A stretch of 64,000 bases of DNA from Allomeiothermus silvanus DSM 9946. Lineage in GTDB: Bacteria > Deinococcota > Deinococci > Deinococcales > Thermaceae. Positions within the stretch are counted from its first letter, which is position 1, and every line of letters begins with the position of its first letter. The stretch lies in contig NC_014214.1 of the NCBI RefSeq assembly GCF_000092125.1, positions 1 to 64,000 on the forward strand, read 5' to 3'. Under the pieces are notes generated by a model that did not search any database, had not been told where the DNA came from, and saw only the letters and a list, made by a program, of their open reading frames with translations. Both the position numbers and the translations under genes were made by a program. This document shows, in pieces, positions 99-25,570 of this stretch.

Positions 99-2114
99 CT
101 AGCGTTCCAGACTGACCTCCCTCGAGTTCTCCCGGTTCAGCGCGTATTCCCGAATCTTCTCCGCGATGGGCGGGGTGTCCCGGTAAGCATCGCAGAAGCT
201 CTCGAGAAGTTCTGTGCCCAGCGCTTTCTCCAGGTCGTGGTCGTACTGGATGTTGCGCCAGCGTTCGTCAAAGGTGATTTCCCCCTGTCGAACCGCTTCC
301 GAGAGGCGGGTCAGGTTCGAGCTTCCAAACCGTTCCTCGAGGGCTTCCATGTTTCGGAGAGCTTGCGTGGCCTCGTTTTCCAGGGCTTTGGCCCTTAGCT
401 CCTCGCGCAGCTCCGCAGGGATGGTTCTTTCGGTGGCGTTGGCCGCCTCCAGCAGCACCTCCACGTGACGGGGCAGGGCGTCGTCGTTGCCGACCTCCCT
501 CATCTTCCACTGTCGGGTACTGGAGTCATACTCCGCGATCAGCACCGCGTACCCCTCCCCGCTGTGATCCTGCGGCCCCTGCAGGGGATGGTGGGAGGGG
601 CGCCGCACCTCCAAGTGCAGGTTGCCCTGCTGATCCACCTCCCAGGACAGCCGCCCGGTGCCGGTGGTGTGGGAGAGGACGTACCTATCGTTCTCCACCG
701 TGCCTTCGGGAAAGATGCCGCCCACCGGACCGCACATGTGCACCCGGGCGCTCAGGATCCGCATTTCCGCCTCCCGGTTGGTTTGGGACTGATGCAGCGC
801 GTCGGCAAGCTGGTCCGGCGTGGGGTTGCCCCACTCGTGGCTGTGCGCTCTGGCCAGGTCGTGAGCAGCGTACCATTGCGCGAAGGAGGGCAAGGCAAGC
901 TCCGGACTTTTGCCGACGTATTCCAGTTGCGGCTCGAGGTCCCTGGGTGCGGGTTCAGCCTCCTTGGCAAAGAGCTTGTAGTCGGGCAGCGCCTTCCAGG
1001 AATCGCCTTCCTGGACGAAGACCACTCCGGGGCGGCTTTCCAGGGTGTAGTGGGGGACATCGGGAACCTCCCAGCGGCGGGGGTGTTGAAACTGCCCCTC
1101 GGTGAGGCGGTCGAGTTCTTCCAAAGAGCGGACGACCGGGGCCCAGGTGGCCTCCGTGTGGCTCGGCTGGAGTTTCCACTGCCCGTTTTCGTGGACCAGG
1201 GTTTCCAGCACGGGAACCTTGCTGTCTATGTCCTGGATCAGGTACATCCTGCGGTCGGCAGGGATTTTCAGGTAGGGATCGCTGACGGGATCGGGGGTCA
1301 CCACTACCTGCCCCTCTTCCCGGTTAAAGTACATCTCCGCCCGGTATTGCAGCGCCACCTCCCGCGCCTCGGCCAGGATTCTATGGGTCTGATCGTGGTA
1401 CAACCCCTGCTCCTGGATGTACGCCAGGGCATCTAATTGCTGCTTGGCGAGCTGGACGCGGAAGTTGTACTCGGACTCGGGGTATACGACGTACTGTTTC
1501 CACTCCGCCCGGCTTTCCAGTTCTTCCGGGCTGAGTCTCTGCTTGCGCTCTTCTGCGGTGAGGTGGAACTCCGGCACGCTGACCATGTTCGCGTATGCGG
1601 CGGCGTGCATGGGGGCGTGTCCATACAGGTGCGTTCCAGGGTTTACGTAATCTAGGCGTTCTATGGGCTCCTTACCGGAATATTGTTCCACCAGCCTGGC
1701 CATGTCCGGGTTGGCCGCTACGGCGAGGCGGTCTCCCGAGTCTTCCCTGTAGAGGGTTCCTAGCAGGACACTGTTTACGCCGTGTTCGTCCTTCAGACCG
1801 AGTTGCGTTCCGTATTCCCGGAGCTCGTTGAAGACCTCCCTGATTTTTTCGTTCGACAGCACCACGTAGGTTTCGATGCCCCGAGCCCGGGCTGCGACCT
1901 CATCCTTGGAGAGGTCTTCCCCGCGGGCGGGGGGCGGGTCCAGGGTCACCACCGTGACCGTGTTGGCCTCGGCGGCCAGGTGGTAGGGGAGCACCCCCAC
2001 CACGTCCTGGCCCCGGATGTCCTCCGGGGTGGCGTGAGGGATCACCTTATCGGCCTGGAAGCCCTTTTCTTCCAGGTACTCGACCAGTCCTTTGTGCTGA
2101 GTGATGACGATCAT
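99..2114 (-). CDS. large protein with Csx16-like N-terminal domain
   Basis: Soluble 671-residue protein of unknown overall role. Residues 1-85 match the layout of the small Csx16/VVA1548 family (type III CRISPR accessory proteins): opening ITQHKGLVEYLEEKGF, then DVVGVLPYHLAAE, then RGEDLSKDEV. Free-standing Csx16 proteins are about 95 residues; here roughly 585 more follow in which I recognise no domain. They are rich in charged residues and have no membrane segment. Csx16 is reported to act on cyclic oligoadenylate as a ring nuclease; carrying that activity over to this protein is inference. Start ATG at 2114 has GGAGG six bases upstream. It lies 12 bp after the ankyrin gene, in the same minus-strand series. 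No cas genes or CRISPR array are seen nearby. Family match fairly likely, function unproven. Confidence 0.75.
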   Translation of the reverse strand: MIVITQHKGLVEYLEEKGFQADKVIPHATPEDIRGQDVVGVLPYHLAAEANTVTVVTLDPPPARGEDLSKDEVAARARGIETYVVLSNEKIREVFNELREYGTQLGLKDEHGVNSVLLGTLYREDSGDRLAVAANPDMARLVEQYSGKEPIERLDYVNPGTHLYGHAPMHAAAYANMVSVPEFHLTAEERKQRLSPEELESRAEWKQYVVYPESEYNFRVQLAKQQLDALAYIQEQGLYHDQTHRILAEAREVALQYRAEMYFNREEGQVVVTPDPVSDPYLKIPADRRMYLIQDIDSKVPVLETLVHENGQWKLQPSHTEATWAPVVRSLEELDRLTEGQFQHPRRWEVPDVPHYTLESRPGVVFVQEGDSWKALPDYKLFAKEAEPAPRDLEPQLEYVGKSPELALPSFAQWYAAHDLARAHSHEWGNPTPDQLADALHQSQTNREAEMRILSARVHMCGPVGGIFPEGTVENDRYVLSHTTGTGRLSWEVDQQGNLHLEVRRPSHHPLQGPQDHSGEGYAVLIAEYDSSTRQWKMREVGNDDALPRHVEVLLEAANATERTIPAELREELRAKALENEATQALRNMEALEERFGSSNLTRLSEAVRQGEITFDERWRNIQYDHDLEKALGTELLESFCDAYRDTPPIAEKIREYALNRENSREVSLER

Positions 2115-2126
2115 GGGTTCCTCCCG

Positions 2127-2648
2127 TTAGCGCTCCAGGGTGGGGCTGTCTTCTCTTCCCGATACCCGCAGGACCTCCAGGTCGCCCCGTTCGACAGCCA
2201 GCGAAAGCGGGGTATTCCCTTTGAGGTCGGGTAGGTTCGGATCCGCTCCCAGCTCCAGCAGGGCCTGCCAGGACTCGGCACTCCCCGCCTTGGCCGCGGC
2301 GTGCAGCGGGGTCTGCCCGTAGCGGTCGGGCCATTCCAGGTTGACCCCGTACTCGACCAGCAGGCGGGCGGCCTGAACCTGGCCCAGGCGCGCCGCCTCG
2401 TGCAGGGGGGTCTCCCCTTTCCAGTCGGCGGCATCGGGGGAGGCCCCGCTTTTGAGCAGCGCCTCCAGGGATTCGGTGTAGCCCATGCTGGCCGCCCGGT
2501 GCAGCGGGGTGCGGCCCCGGGAGTCGCAGAGATTGGGGTCGCCCCCCGAAGCCAGCCAGGCTTTGAGGGAGTCCAACCTACCGATTCGGGCGGCGGTGTG
2601 CGGGTCCATCCAAGTACCGGCGTTATCCGGGTCGCTATGCGATTTCAT
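2127..2648 (-). CDS. ankyrin-repeat protein
   Basis: Protein of 173 residues made almost wholly of four to five ankyrin repeats. The hallmark TPLHRAA, TPLHEAA, TPLHAAA and TPLSLAV tetrads recur every 33 residues, with GADPNLPD-type turns between them. Ankyrin repeats bind partner proteins, so a protein-binding or inhibitor role is the general expectation; the partner is unknown. A longer reading frame exists upstream, but ATG 2648 is chosen because GGAGGT sits five bases before it and because it overlaps the stop of the preceding gene (ATGA). No signal peptide, so cytoplasmic. Likely co-transcribed with the Csx16-like gene downstream. Confidence 0.9.
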   Translation of the reverse strand: MKSHSDPDNAGTWMDPHTAARIGRLDSLKAWLASGGDPNLCDSRGRTPLHRAASMGYTESLEALLKSGASPDAADWKGETPLHEAARLGQVQAARLLVEYGVNLEWPDRYGQTPLHAAAKAGSAESWQALLELGADPNLPDLKGNTPLSLAVERGDLEVLRVSGREDSPTLER

Positions 2649-2875
2649 CCGACCTCCGCGCGGGTTATCCGCGCCAGCTGCCCCAACTCCTCCTTCAAGG
2701 TCCGCCGGAGGTGCCGGTAATGCACGTCGTACTCCAGCTTCCCCCCCATGGCCAGGGTGCTGACCTTGCGCTGCTCCGCCCTTTCGAGAGCCTGCAAGGT
2801 GCGCCACAGCTGCCGCACCCAGGCTTCCAGACCGTCTTCCTCCGCCACGTCGATCCGTTCCTCCAGCGCTACCAT
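2645..2875 (-). CDS. small helical hypothetical protein
   Basis: Protein of 76 residues, mostly charged and predicted helical, with no recognised domain. It overlaps the ankyrin start by four bases (ATGA), which implies translational coupling. It begins MVALEERIDVAEEDG and carries a single aromatic patch (YDVHYRH). Start ATG 2875 follows GGGAGGGAAG. Part of the small-gene series running leftwards from 3.6 kb. Function unknown. Confidence 0.65.
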   Translation of the reverse strand: MVALEERIDVAEEDGLEAWVRQLWRTLQALERAEQRKVSTLAMGGKLEYDVHYRHLRRTLKEELGQLARITRAEVG

Positions 2876-2885
2876 CTTCCCTCCC

Positions 2886-3110
2886 TCAAAGCCCCGAGCC
2901 CCTCGGCTCGACCATGTACGGCACCAGCCGTTTGCGCTCCAGGGTCACCACCCCGTACCAGACGCTGCCGCCCTCGACCTTGATCTCCCGATCCAGCCGC
3001 ACCATCCGCCCCCCCTCCGCCACGAAGGCGTAGGGAAAGCAGTGCTGGGCGAAACCCCGGAACACCGGGGTGCCCAAAAAGGAAAGCTTCCGTCCAATCT
3101 GCTCGTACAA
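2886..3110 (-). CDS. small hypothetical protein, TTG start
   Basis: Protein of 74 residues without a recognised domain; it contains several aromatic beta-type stretches (VWYGVVTLERKRLVPY). The start is a TTG at 3110, chosen because AGGAGGT lies four to five bases upstream and a TATAAT box (3132-3137) sits just before it, giving a very short leader. First gene of the transcript that runs through the ankyrin and Csx16-like genes. Function unknown. Confidence 0.65.
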   Translation of the reverse strand: MYEQIGRKLSFLGTPVFRGFAQHCFPYAFVAEGGRMVRLDREIKVEGGSVWYGVVTLERKRLVPYMVEPRGSGL

Positions 3111-3116
3111 GCTGTC

Positions 3117-3171
3117 ACCTCCTGTAGTGTGATTATATATAAAACTGCACCGGGGACAACCACCCCGGTGC
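3117..3171 (-). promoter_or_regulatory. terminator plus promoter between minus-strand genes
   Basis: A GC hairpin (GCACCGGGG ... CCCCGGTGC, 3147-3171) followed on the minus strand by AGTTTT ends the upstream gene. Directly behind it is TATAAT at 3132-3137 and AGGAGGT near 3117-3121, which starts the next gene. Confidence 0.65.
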
Positions 3172-3176
3172 CAGGT

Positions 3177-3380
3177 CTACTCCGCCGCCTCCAGGCGGTT
3201 CATCTCTTGGTGATACTCGACTATTTCCGTCCAGATTTCCTCGGCCTCCGGGAAGCGCTCCTCCTGGGCTGCCTCCCGGAGGACCGTGCTGAGCCAGTAC
3301 AGCCCGTCCTCCTGCATCGTGGGGTGGCTCTCCGCGAGCCACCCCAGCACCTTGACCAGTTCCTCGATGAACTCCTTCAT
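3177..3380 (-). CDS. small acidic hypothetical protein
   Basis: Protein of 67 residues beginning MKEFIEELVKVLGWLAES, acidic and predicted all-helical. ATG 3380 is preferred over a longer upstream frame because GGAGGGG stands just before it and it overlaps the stop of the preceding gene. A hairpin terminator lies six bases after the stop. No family recognised. Confidence 0.6.
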   Translation of the reverse strand: MKEFIEELVKVLGWLAESHPTMQEDGLYWLSTVLREAAQEERFPEAEEIWTEIVEYHQEMNRLEAAE

Positions 3381-3628
3381 CCCCTCCTCCACCGCTCTAG
3401 CGAAGCCCGCTCCTGTGGGGTGAGGGGCAACTCCTCCAGCGAAGCCCGCCGGACTACCGCCCGCCGCTTGCGCTTGGGAGCGCCCCACACCGCCTCCTCG
3501 ATGATCTTCTGCCGCGCCCGGATGCCCCGCGCGGCCAGCAGGAGCCGGGCCTGGGCGGGGGTCAGCGGTTCACCGGAGAACCGTTCGAGGCAGTCCCTCA
3601 AAACAAAAGGATCGTCGATGCGTCGCAT
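3377..3628 (-). CDS. small basic hypothetical protein
   Basis: Protein of 83 residues, strongly basic in its second half (APKRKRRAVVRRAS). Its middle, LTPAQARLLLAARGIRARQKIIEEAV, could form a helix-turn-helix, so nucleic-acid binding is possible but not shown. The start at about 3628 is preceded by GGAGGGA. It lies between a 117-residue gene and the 67-residue gene and overlaps the latter by four bases. Function unknown. Confidence 0.55.
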   Translation of the reverse strand: MRRIDDPFVLRDCLERFSGEPLTPAQARLLLAARGIRARQKIIEEAVWGAPKRKRRAVVRRASLEELPLTPQERASLERWRRG

Positions 3629-3636
3629 AATCCCTC

Positions 3637-3990
3637 CTATGAGCGGAAGCGCAGCGAAACATCCTGGCCGCCGACCAGCTTCTCTCGTTTGAGATGCTCG
3701 ATCTCTTCCAGTTCTAGCGGTTTGCCGAGCTTCTCCGCGCCAAAGAGCGCGATGATCCGCTCGAGCATCTGCTCGAAGTTCCACTCGAAGTCGTCCATCT
3801 CCAGGGCCGTGAGCTGATCCACGAACGACAGCACGGTGGGGTCGGCATCCACGGTCTGCACCGCCAGCCCGATCCGCTTCAGCAGGGCCTCCACGAAGTC
3901 GCCCCAGGCCTCTTCTGCTGTCCAGCGGGCCACGGCCTGCCCCTCCCGCAAAAGGATGTACTCAGGCCCGTCAATGGATAGGGTCGCCAT
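3637..3990 (-). CDS. hypothetical protein, paralogue of a broken gene at 5.5 kb
   Basis: Protein of 117 residues beginning MATLSIDGPEYILLREGQAV. A much longer open frame upstream is only the antisense of the neighbouring TnpB gene, so ATG 3990 with a nearby GAGG is used. Its first 32 residues align with the truncated frame at 5502-5597 (PEY-LLREGQAVA-W-AEEA shared). No domain recognised; C-terminal half acidic and helical. The TnpB element lies just upstream of its start and probably replaced its original promoter region. Confidence 0.65.
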   Translation of the reverse strand: MATLSIDGPEYILLREGQAVARWTAEEAWGDFVEALLKRIGLAVQTVDADPTVLSFVDQLTALEMDDFEWNFEQMLERIIALFGAEKLGKPLELEEIEHLKREKLVGGQDVSLRFRS

Positions 3991-4011
3991 CAACAGGTTC
4001 CTCGTGTTCAC

Positions 4012-5262
4012 CTCAACCACCCCCCGGAAGCCCCTGTCTTTAGACATGGGGAGGAAGGGGGTGGCGAGCGAAGCTCGCTGAATGGTCAAAAACGTGATAT
4101 ACTCTGTCAAGGCATGTCCCTCCTGTCCGTGAAATGCAAGCTGATACCCGACGCGAGTACAGCCGAAAAGCTCTCTCGCACGGTGAACCAGTTCGCCAAC
4201 GCCTGTAACTACGCTTTGCAGGTAGCGCGACGGGATAACATCTGGAACAAGTTCGCCCTGCAAAGGGCGGTGTACGCCGACCTCCGCGCCGAGTACGGCC
4301 TCAGCGCCAACCTTGCTATTCGCGCCATCGCCCGCGTGGGCAAGCGCAAGGGCCACAAAGCCGGGGGCTTCAAGGCCACCTCGGTGGACTACGACCAGCG
4401 CATCTTGTCGGTCAACGTGGACACCGAGACCGTCAGCCTCTCCACCGTGGACGGGCGGGTGAAAGTGCCCATGCGCATCGCCGGGTACCAGCGCCACCTC
4501 CTGCGCACCGCCAAAAGCATCCAGGGCGGGCAGTTGGTCAGAGGGCGGGACTCCTCCTGGTACATCCACCTGTGGTGCGAGTACGATGACCCGCCTGTCC
4601 TTGACCCCCAAGGGATGTTGGGGGTTGACCTGGGCATCGTCAACATCGCCACCGACTCGGATGGCGAGACCTACTCGGGCAAGCACCTCAACTCGGTCAG
4701 ACACCGCCACCGCAGGCTCAGGAAGAAGCTGCAAAAGAAAGGTACTAAGGGGGCCAAGCGCCGCCTGAAGAAACTGTCTGGCAAAGAAACCCGCTTCTCC
4801 AACCACGTCAACCACACGCTCAGCAAACGCATCGTAGCCAAGGCCCAACGCACCGAGCGCGCGCTCGCCCTGGAAGACCTCCAGGGCATCCGCGAGCGGG
4901 TACGGCTTCGGCGGCCCCAGAGAGCTACGCTGCATAGCTGGGCGTTTTTCGACCTGGGCCAGAAGCTCCGGTACAAAGCCGAACGGGCCGGAGTACCGCT
5001 GGTCTTCGTTGACCCCCGCAACACCTCCCGGCAGTGCCCCGCTTGCGGGCACGCCGAGCGGGCCAACCGTCCCACGCAAGCACTGTTTCGATGCGTAGCC
5101 TGCGGCTACTCTGGGGCTGCGGACTACGTCGCAGCCGTGAACATCGCTGTTCGCGGCTGGGCCGCTGTAAACCGGCCATACCTGGGGGAAGCGAGTCGTG
5201 TTAGTCTGCATGGCTCTGTCCCTGGAAGCCCCCGGCTTTAGCCGTGGGGTGGTTTACCCCGG
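4012..5262 (+). mobile_element. IS200/IS605-type element with tnpB only
   Basis: A tnpB gene is framed by the sub-terminal hairpins typical of IS200/IS605 elements. The left hairpin is at 4031-4051 (CCCCTGTCT, TT, AGACATGGGG). The right hairpin is at 5229-5249 (CCCCCGGCT, TT, AGCCGTGGGG) and overlaps the tnpB stop. Both ends are flanked by AACCACCCC-type sequence in opposite orientation. There is no tnpA, so movement would need one in trans; the element at 31.4-33.1 kb carries one. Exact boundaries are estimates. It sits in an ardC-like gene on one side. Confidence 0.8.
4114..5241 (+). CDS. tnpB: TnpB RNA-guided nuclease (OrfB family)
   Basis: Protein of 375 residues, normal length for TnpB. 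RuvC-like residues are intact: Asp in GVDLGIVNIA (near residue 172), Glu in LALEDLQGI (near 251), and Asp in GAADYVAAVNIA near the end. A four-cysteine zinc ribbon (CPACGH ... CVACGY) lies before the last motif. TnpB proteins are RNA-guided DNA nucleases whose guide RNA is made from the 3' end of the gene and the element's right end; here the stop lies inside the right-end hairpin, as expected. TATACT stands a short distance before ATG 4114, giving a very short leader. Likely functional. Confidence 0.92.
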   Translation: MSLLSVKCKLIPDASTAEKLSRTVNQFANACNYALQVARRDNIWNKFALQRAVYADLRAEYGLSANLAIRAIARVGKRKGHKAGGFKATSVDYDQRILSVNVDTETVSLSTVDGRVKVPMRIAGYQRHLLRTAKSIQGGQLVRGRDSSWYIHLWCEYDDPPVLDPQGMLGVDLGIVNIATDSDGETYSGKHLNSVRHRHRRLRKKLQKKGTKGAKRRLKKLSGKETRFSNHVNHTLSKRIVAKAQRTERALALEDLQGIRERVRLRRPQRATLHSWAFFDLGQKLRYKAERAGVPLVFVDPRNTSRQCPACGHAERANRPTQALFRCVACGYSGAADYVAAVNIAVRGWAAVNRPYLGEASRVSLHGSVPGSPRL

Positions 5263-18495: not shown

Positions 18496-19375
18496 ACGTG
18501 GTTTGCTACTTGAAATGGGGGAAGAAAAGGGAGATGGTCTTCATTGCTATGAGAAACCATCCCCGCTATCAGCATAGCCTGGAGGAACTGTTTTTGAGGG
18601 TCTTCATCCTGGTGGATGACTGGCTCAAAGCCAACCAGGAGCGCTTCAGGCTACCGGTGCAAGCCAACCAGGTGGCCAGCTACAGCGAGTTATTCACCAT
18701 AGCCCTGGTAGGTGAACTGTTGGCCCAACCCTACGAGTCGGTGTGGTACTGGCTGGTGCGTCAGAATCATCGGGGCTTGTTCCCGCGACTACCCGAGTAC
18801 AGCCGTTACCATCGGATCGTGCGCAATGCGGAGCCCCTATGGGCCGAGCTCGCTCAATCGCTAGCCGCCAAGGAGGATGAGGATTGGGGGATTGAGGTCA
18901 TCGACACCAAGCCCCTCCCCATCGCCAAGGGTAAGCGTTGGGAATGGGCCAAGATGCCCGAGGCCAGCAAGGGCTTCAGCACCATGGGGATGGTCTGGGG
19001 CTTTAAGCTGCACGCGGTGGTGAGCCTGGGGGGGCTGTTCCGACGTTGGGCCTTTGTGCCTGCGCACGCGCACGAGAGCCGTGTGGTCGAGGGACTGCTT
19101 GGGAGGGCCACGCTAGGGGACAGGGCTTACGTAGGCACGGGGGTGTACTGTCCCAGCCGCAAGAACATGAAGCGCCAGACCTTCTGGCCCAGGGCTTTAT
19201 CCAGGCTGCGTAAACGCATCGAGACCAGTTTCAGTTCCCTGGTCCGCTCGCTTCACCTGCACGTGGGGCAGGTCAAGACCTTCTGGTCTTTACGAGCCAG
19301 GGTCAACCTCAAAATCGCTGCCCACAACCTCATGCACTCAGGTGTGTTGGTCTGACTTCAGGTAGCAAACGAGGT
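18496..19375 (+). mobile_element. IS982-family insertion sequence, copy 1
   Basis: 880 bp with imperfect terminal repeats ACGTGGTTTGCTACTTGAA and ACCTCGTTTGCTACCTGAA (three mismatches in 19). Flanked by a 4-bp direct repeat (TATT on the plus strand; 18492-18495 and 19376-19379). Almost identical to copy 2 at 24691-25570, and in the same orientation. It interrupts ssb after its fourth codon. Confidence 0.92.
18534..19355 (+). CDS. IS982-family transposase
   Basis: Protein of about 273 residues (up to 285 from an upstream GTG). DDE-type features of IS982: Asp in EVIDTKPLPIAKGK, then KGFSTMGMVWGFKLHAVVS, Asp in LGDRAYVGTGVYCPSRKNMK, and Glu in KRIETSFSSLVR. The ATG at 18534 lies immediately after GGGAG; ATG 18549 is an alternative. 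Differs from the copy at 24.7 kb by one residue (Ala for Val in PAH-HES). Confidence 0.9.
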   Translation: MVFIAMRNHPRYQHSLEELFLRVFILVDDWLKANQERFRLPVQANQVASYSELFTIALVGELLAQPYESVWYWLVRQNHRGLFPRLPEYSRYHRIVRNAEPLWAELAQSLAAKEDEDWGIEVIDTKPLPIAKGKRWEWAKMPEASKGFSTMGMVWGFKLHAVVSLGGLFRRWAFVPAHAHESRVVEGLLGRATLGDRAYVGTGVYCPSRKNMKRQTFWPRALSRLRKRIETSFSSLVRSLHLHVGQVKTFWSLRARVNLKIAAHNLMHSGVLV

Positions 19376-24690: not shown

Positions 24691-25570
24691 ACGTGGTTTG
24701 CTACTTGAAATGGGGGAAGAAAAGGGAGATGGTTTTCATTGCTATGAGAAACCATCCCCGCTATCAGCATAGCCTGGAGGAACTGTTTTTGAGGGTCTTC
24801 ATCCTGGTCGATGACTGGCTCAAAGCCAACCAGGAGCGCTTCAGGCTACCGGTGCAAGCCAACCAGGTGGCCAGCTACAGCGAGTTATTCACCATAGCCC
24901 TGGTAGGTGAACTGTTGGCCCAACCCTACGAGTCGGTGTGGTACTGGCTGGTGCGTCAGAATCATCGGGGCTTGTTCCCGCGACTACCCGAGTACAGCCG
25001 TTACCATCGGATCGTGCGCAATGCGGAGCCCCTATGGGCCGAGCTCGCTCAATCGCTAGCCGCCAAGGAGGATGAGGATTGGGGGATTGAGGTCATCGAC
25101 ACCAAGCCCCTCCCCATCGCCAAGGGTAAGCGTTGGGAATGGGCCAAGATGCCCGAGGCCAGCAAGGGCTTCAGCACCATGGGGATGGTCTGGGGCTTTA
25201 AGCTGCACGCGGTGGTGAGCCTGGGGGGGCTGTTCCGACGTTGGGCCTTTGTGCCTGCGCACGTGCACGAGAGCCGTGTGGTCGAGGGACTGCTTGGGAG
25301 GGCCACGCTAGGGGACAGGGCTTACGTAGGCACGGGGGTGTACTGTCCCAGCCGCAAGAACATGAAGCGCCAGACCTTCTGGCCCAGGGCTTTATCCAGG
25401 CTGCGTAAACGCATCGAGACCAGTTTCAGTTCCCTGGTCCGCTCGCTTCACCTGCACGTGGGGCAGGTCAAGACCTTCTGGTCTTTACGAGCCAGGGTCA
25501 ACCTCAAAATCGCTGCCCACAACCTCATGCACTCAGGTGTGTTGGTCTGACTTCAGGTAGCAAACGAGGT
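24691..25570 (+). mobile_element. IS982-family insertion sequence, copy 2
   Basis: 880 bp, same ends and orientation as copy 1, flanked by its own 4-bp repeat (CATT at 24687-24690 and 25571-25574). Only a few base differences from copy 1, so both moved recently. It lies right next to the right end of a TnpB element. Confidence 0.92.
24729..25550 (+). CDS. IS982-family transposase
   Basis: Same protein as the copy-1 transposase except Val for Ala in PAH-HES. The DDE residues are intact (VIDTKPLPIAKGK, LGDRAYVG, RIETSFSSL). Start chosen as in copy 1. Confidence 0.9.
   Translation: MVFIAMRNHPRYQHSLEELFLRVFILVDDWLKANQERFRLPVQANQVASYSELFTIALVGELLAQPYESVWYWLVRQNHRGLFPRLPEYSRYHRIVRNAEPLWAELAQSLAAKEDEDWGIEVIDTKPLPIAKGKRWEWAKMPEASKGFSTMGMVWGFKLHAVVSLGGLFRRWAFVPAHVHESRVVEGLLGRATLGDRAYVGTGVYCPSRKNMKRQTFWPRALSRLRKRIETSFSSLVRSLHLHVGQVKTFWSLRARVNLKIAAHNLMHSGVLV

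Follow-up and report, generated by a model that had tools for sequence, protein, structure and literature searches.

The locus studied here raises the question of what a plasmid gains from a large protein that begins like Csx16, a CRISPR-associated protein. The window, which is the whole stretch of DNA analysed, comprises the first 64 kb of plasmid pMESIL02 (contig C3, 124,421 bp) from a Meiothermus silvanus genome of 3 contigs and 3,721,669 bp; for strain DSM 9946, a chromosome of 3,249,394 bp and plasmids of 347,854 and 124,421 bp have been reported (PMC3035272). The gene in question, P0001, is an open reading frame of 671 amino acids at positions 99-2114 on the minus strand. A preliminary description had read its first 85 residues as Csx16/VVA1548, placed Csx16 in the ring-nuclease group and proposed that a mobile element uses it against host type III signalling. 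The assignment to the ring nucleases is now backed by biochemistry: a purified Csx16 is specific for cyclic tetra-adenylate (cA4), cleaving it and not cA3 or cA6, is modelled as a dimer, has been reported in two phage genomes and has a published structural match in 2j6b, a protein of the AcrIII-1 type (PMC12409355).

The frame of P0001 is open throughout and codon statistics favour it in all segments, including the C-terminal part. A Shine-Dalgarno region with the sequence GGGAGG lies just before the ATG (2115-2125, minus strand), and directly upstream on the same strand a gene for an ankyrin-repeat protein (2127-2648; Pfam Ank_4, E=7e-35) ends after a gap of 12 nt. Because of this spacing and the GGGAGG motif, the two genes are probably carried on one transcript. 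Upstream of the ankyrin gene the gene map places five small hypothetical genes on the minus strand within 2645-4110 (2645-2875, 2886-3110, 3177-3380, 3377-3628 and 3637-4110), and the products of the two that were scanned, 2645-2875 and 3637-4110, matched no Pfam family above the cut-off.

The Pfam comparison suggested by the preliminary description gave a clear answer for the N-terminal region. Residues 3-85 (1860-2108, minus strand) reach 71.1 bits against PF09652, for which the cut-off is 25 (E=9.2e-20). PADLOC likewise recognises Csx16 in this domain (E=1.5e-18), with three of its models, the best of which carries the label CAS-I/III-associated; the NCBIfam Csx16 model (TIGR02620) covers only residues 3-50 and, at 24.7 bits, stays under its cut-off of 46.35. 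In an alignment of about 20 relatives, the domain keeps the invariant positions H7, V38, G40, L42, P43 and L46 as well as the almost invariant R64, G65 and L68. The motifs GVLPxHLAA and RGxxLS are retained, and the alternating order of strands and helices is that of the Csx16 family. The usual arginine at position 6, beside the conserved histidine, is replaced by glutamine, a change seen in all three Meiothermus Csx16 proteins. AlphaFold2 (AF2) models this part with a pLDDT of about 92. By the Pfam test, judged at the level of sequence, domain 1 is a Csx16 domain. The protein as a whole departs from an ordinary Csx16 in its length, its architecture and its position in the genome.

The remainder of P0001 had been put down as some 585 unrecognised residues, which proved too many. 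Residues ~125-215 (1470-1742, minus strand) form a second, degenerate Csx16 domain, so that the orphan part shrinks to about 440 residues. When isolated, this segment aligns with the Csx16 family alignment at E=2.7e-6 (hhalign), and it scores 20-23 bits with HMMs built without P0001 sequences, a score reached by none of 3000 shuffled sequences (best 9-10 bits). In a BLAST comparison, residues 11-247 of P0001 align with an entire tandem protein of Meiothermus luteus (E=1e-19). AF2 predicts residues 1-243 with a pLDDT of 87 and a pTM of 0.80, the second domain itself at about 90, and the order of strands and helices matches between the two halves; two of the five tandem models reached a pLDDT of 85-87 and the other three were poorer (59-65). 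The conserved histidine, the RG motif and most other family positions are lost in domain 2. A possible third copy at residues ~260-283, with 52% identity over 25 residues, was rejected since its HMM score of 3.5 bits lies below the shuffle maximum.

This combination of one conserved and one degenerate half bears on whether the protein would still cut its ligand. The glutamine at position 6 and the missing histidine in domain 2 mean that catalysis could be weak or lost, and P0001 might then be a cA4 sponge, a pseudo-dimer with one degenerate half that binds the ring and leaves it intact, for which there is a precedent in Csx15, a slow ring-nuclease relative that acts as a sponge (PMC13148439). 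We consider such a purely binding protein rather unlikely, given that domain 1 retains the invariant H7 and the positions of GxLPxHLAA and RG-LS that Csx16 proteins have in common. The degenerate domain 2, together with the orphan tail and the NCBIfam score below cut-off, could be taken to mean that the Csx16 part is a vestige, reused by an unrelated plasmid protein that does not act on cyclic nucleotides at all. That seems highly improbable to us, with domain 1 scoring 98 bits against its relatives in a custom HMM and with a second tandem copy retained both on pMESIL02 and in M. luteus, as described below.

Structural comparison, which had also been proposed, points in the same direction as the published match, with modest scores. 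Among the structures matched by the tandem model are the AcrIII-1 proteins 2j6b (Z 4.2, over 69 residues of domain 1) and 6scf (Z 3.7), in line with the pairing of Csx16 with 2j6b in the literature, and Z values near 4 are weak and not decisive. Csx1-Crn2 was also among these weak matches. A check for a CARF-like five-stranded core returned a confident model of alternating strands and helices, the best rows of which included AcrIII-1 at a Z of only about 4. Foldseek gave no match at E <= 0.001 in the PDB for either the full-length or the tandem model, nor in BFVD for the tandem model, and DUF1874, the AcrIII-1/Crn2 family, is absent among the Pfam matches of P0001 with E up to 10.

The C-terminal ~436 residues (102-1409, minus strand) are without recognised relatives. 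No relatives of this tail were found in Pfam above the cut-off, PHROGs, the PDB, plasmids, phages, IMG/VR, genome_contigs or 111 Deinococcota genomes, and searches with the whole protein in plasmids, phages, IMG/VR, genome_contigs and the same 111 genomes returned Csx16 parts or nothing. Matches to DUF7639 and Acyltransferase in the tail were partial and under cut-off and were rejected. AF2 confidence in this region is mostly between 30 and 75. With fusions of Csx16 to CARF-HEPN or CARF-TM effectors catalogued in PADLOC, and with a tail of such length whose frame looks coding, one may picture P0001 as a cA4-gated effector in which the Csx16 domains sense the ring and the C-terminal ~440 residues deliver the output. 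We regard this as quite improbable: the tail bears no effector signature across the libraries searched, no type III gene neighbours P0001, and the related tandem proteins of pMESIL02 and M. luteus manage without it. Among these proteins the long tail is peculiar to P0001, and it is most likely a lineage-specific addition. Two viral Csx16 proteins in IMG/VR (L034:453-1253 and L040:5983-6696) were seen to have C-terminal extensions of their own, of ~130-140 residues, which by eye bear no relation to that of P0001.

The second tandem protein, g084, is encoded at C3:72302-73087 on the minus strand (L009:8302-9087); it is 261 residues long, contains two Csx16 domains and is transcribed divergently from the gene for a VirD4/TraG-type coupling protein. 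A VirB4/TraC-type ATPase is likewise encoded on pMESIL02. The location on a mobile element, as first described, is thus borne out by a plasmid with conjugation-type T4SS genes, which we term T4SS-bearing rather than conjugative because no relaxase was identified on it. In M. luteus, an orthologue of g084 with 84% identity is accompanied by several similar neighbouring genes, and so the tandem arrangement occurs in at least two Meiothermus species. Within the M. silvanus genome, Csx16 is confined to pMESIL02.

An anti-type-III role presupposes a host with type III systems that signal through cyclic oligoadenylates, and genes for such systems are present. RAMP genes are found on pMESIL01, the second plasmid, and on the chromosome; a RAMP search found no type III genes on pMESIL02, and the 64-kb window contains no CRISPR array. 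One host locus is of type III-B, with a Cas10 carrying the motif SGGDD, Csx1 (E=2.5e-97) and CARF-RelE (E=9e-183), and adjoins I-C genes. The other is of type III-A, with a Cas10 carrying AGGDD and an array of 12 repeats. With their GGDD cyclase motifs intact, both Cas10 proteins look able to make cyclic oligoadenylate. The host Csx1 was missed by a Pfam Csx1_HEPN search and is clearly detected by PADLOC. Effectors of the Csx1 and CARF-RelE classes are mostly of the cA4 type, and cA4 is accordingly the presumed product of the host Cas10 proteins. The suggestion that the host should be examined for type III systems was in this respect rewarding. The spacers, on the other hand, count against an anti-type-III role: none of the 26 in the arrays read, which are part of the host's total, matches pMESIL02.

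Neither of the two host type III stretches that were read contains a Csx16 of its own. This leaves room for a reading that benefits the host, in which the plasmid protein acts in trans as an off-switch that resets the type III systems, one of which is on pMESIL01; the chemistry would be identical. The distribution of Csx16 makes this decidedly unlikely in our view. Type III RAMP genes are present in 43 of the 111 Deinococcota genomes, and not one of the 43 has Csx16 inside a type III locus. Csx16 was found in two of the 111, M. silvanus and M. luteus, in both cases on contigs without RAMP genes, which argues against Csx16 as a standard component of type III loci in Deinococcota. The presence of type III systems in both Csx16-bearing genomes is not significant, as 43 of the 111 have RAMP genes anyway. 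The off-switch reading also sits poorly with sequence relationships that group the protein with virus-borne Csx16.

These relationships were followed among plasmids and viral contigs. Plasmid-borne Csx16 comes in two kinds: in Allochromatium, Aeromonas and Photobacterium it adjoins cas, csm6, cas6 or cmr genes, and on Deinococcus proteolyticus pDEIPR02, Paenibacillus polymyxa pSC2 and an archaeal plasmid it lies amid hypothetical and plasmid genes. In IMG/VR, 25 contigs carry Csx16, all single-domain as read. The 86 neighbouring proteins include tail proteins, endolysins and terminases of several families. Around these Csx16 genes, tblastn searches with 19 reference Cas proteins found no Cas gene, the same test being positive at two CRISPR-linked loci. 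One contig filed as viral (among L034-L058) has a type IV Cas7 (Csf2) gene near Csx16 and is possibly a plasmid. A maximum-likelihood tree unites the first domains of the three Meiothermus proteins on one branch (97/89), which falls inside a group of 23 sequences (97/96) from viral contigs and the Deinococcus plasmid; all six CRISPR-locus Csx16 lie apart from this group. The comparison set from CRISPR loci is small, consisting of these six gammaproteobacterial sequences, and the tree is therefore support for, and not proof of, a mobile-element branch of Csx16. For the same reason, and in view of the PADLOC label noted above, CRISPR-linked members of the Meiothermus/viral clade may exist.

Taken together, host, context and ancestry agree with P0001 as a candidate anti-CRISPR protein. 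We lean towards the view that it is a plasmid-borne, Csx16-type cA4 ring nuclease (or sponge), built as a single-chain pseudo-dimer, that dampens host type III signalling; its function is deduced from the published biochemistry of Csx16. The anti-type-III role first proposed thus gains from a host with type III systems of the cyclic oligoadenylate kind, from Csx16 being unlinked to them, from the T4SS and from the virus-borne grouping, and loses from the lack of matches among the 26 spacers read. A chain with two Csx16 domains would bring the two halves of a dimer together in a single molecule, domain 1 contributing the conserved residues and the degenerate domain 2 probably serving a structural role. 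Recognition of plasmid transcripts by type III complexes would lead the host Cas10 to make cA4, which P0001 may bind at the domain interface and either linearise by one-sided cutting or sequester. With cA4 lowered, Csx1 and CARF-RelE would stay off and the plasmid could establish or persist. Both the binding or cleavage of cA4 and the resulting benefit to the plasmid are presumed here. A bolder version, which we offer as speculation and would not expect to hold in full, is that plasmids and phages own a separate Csx16 branch as an anti-type-III weapon, that the Meiothermus version has turned into a one-chain pseudo-dimer of which a single half still works and would cut the ring once or hold it, and that the 440-residue partner adds a second function in anti-defence or transfer.

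Comparison with known systems places P0001 between several of them. It shares with Cas_VVA1548 (PF09652) the conserved histidine, GxLPxxLA and RGxxLS, whereas the CRISPR-locus Csx16 proteins examined are single domains of ~95-105 residues beside type III or cas genes, and P0001 is a tandem with an added 440-residue tail, encoded on a plasmid that lacks type III genes. Like AcrIII-1/Crn2 (DUF1874), it would serve a mobile element against cA4 signalling, and its domain 1 has the weak structural similarity noted above; P0001 nevertheless belongs to a different sequence family, with no sequence match, and AcrIII-1 is not a fusion. Crn4b and other phage and plasmid ring nucleases are likewise carried by mobile elements and in some cases bear extensions with no assigned function, but the Crn4b fold is unrelated and its extensions are N-terminal and 60-80 residues long, unlike the C-terminal 440 residues of P0001 (PMC12830947). 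As in the Csx1-Crn2 and CARF-HEPN-Csx16 fusions, a ring nuclease domain sits within a longer chain, although the partners in those fusions are recognisable effectors. That ring nucleases of several families occur on phages and plasmids is already known. The present analysis finds the Csx16 domain on 25 viral contigs and on plasmids; in Meiothermus it is doubled within a single protein, and the host concerned has the effectors Csx1 and CARF-RelE. If P0001 is active, its pairing of an intact with a degenerate half in one polypeptide would make it a probe of how the halves of a ring-nuclease dimer share work, and the pair of plasmid and host would be a natural contest between plasmid and type III in a thermophile.

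Outside the window, pMESIL02 carries defence-related genes of other kinds. The preliminary description had seen no cas genes or array nearby, which holds for type III genes on the plasmid and for arrays in the window, and not for a Cas12m-type gene at C3:108841-111143 (L011:4841-7143; PDB Cas12m E=1.3e-71, PADLOC Cas12u1 E=2e-92), ~13 kb from P0001 if the plasmid is circular. The gene adjoins 7-8 degenerate 38-nt repeats with unique spacers of 28-40 nt, which match nothing elsewhere among the sequences searched; read from the sequence, gene and array make up a small CRISPR locus that resembles type V-M and whose repeat is unusually variable. At C3:99.7-107.3 kb (L010:15721-19098 and L011:900-3262), a Type IIG-like methylase and a 1125-residue helicase resembling DrmD/DpdE/PLD-helicase models are probably a restriction or defence cluster of the plasmid. 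Inside the window, a TnpB-like gene at 4114-5241 (PADLOC Cas12f/u3 models, E=7e-49) breaks the minus-strand gene run upstream of P0001, and two plus-strand frames of equal length (273 residues; 18534-19355 and 24729-25550), identical in their first 50 residues, are probably copies of an insertion element.
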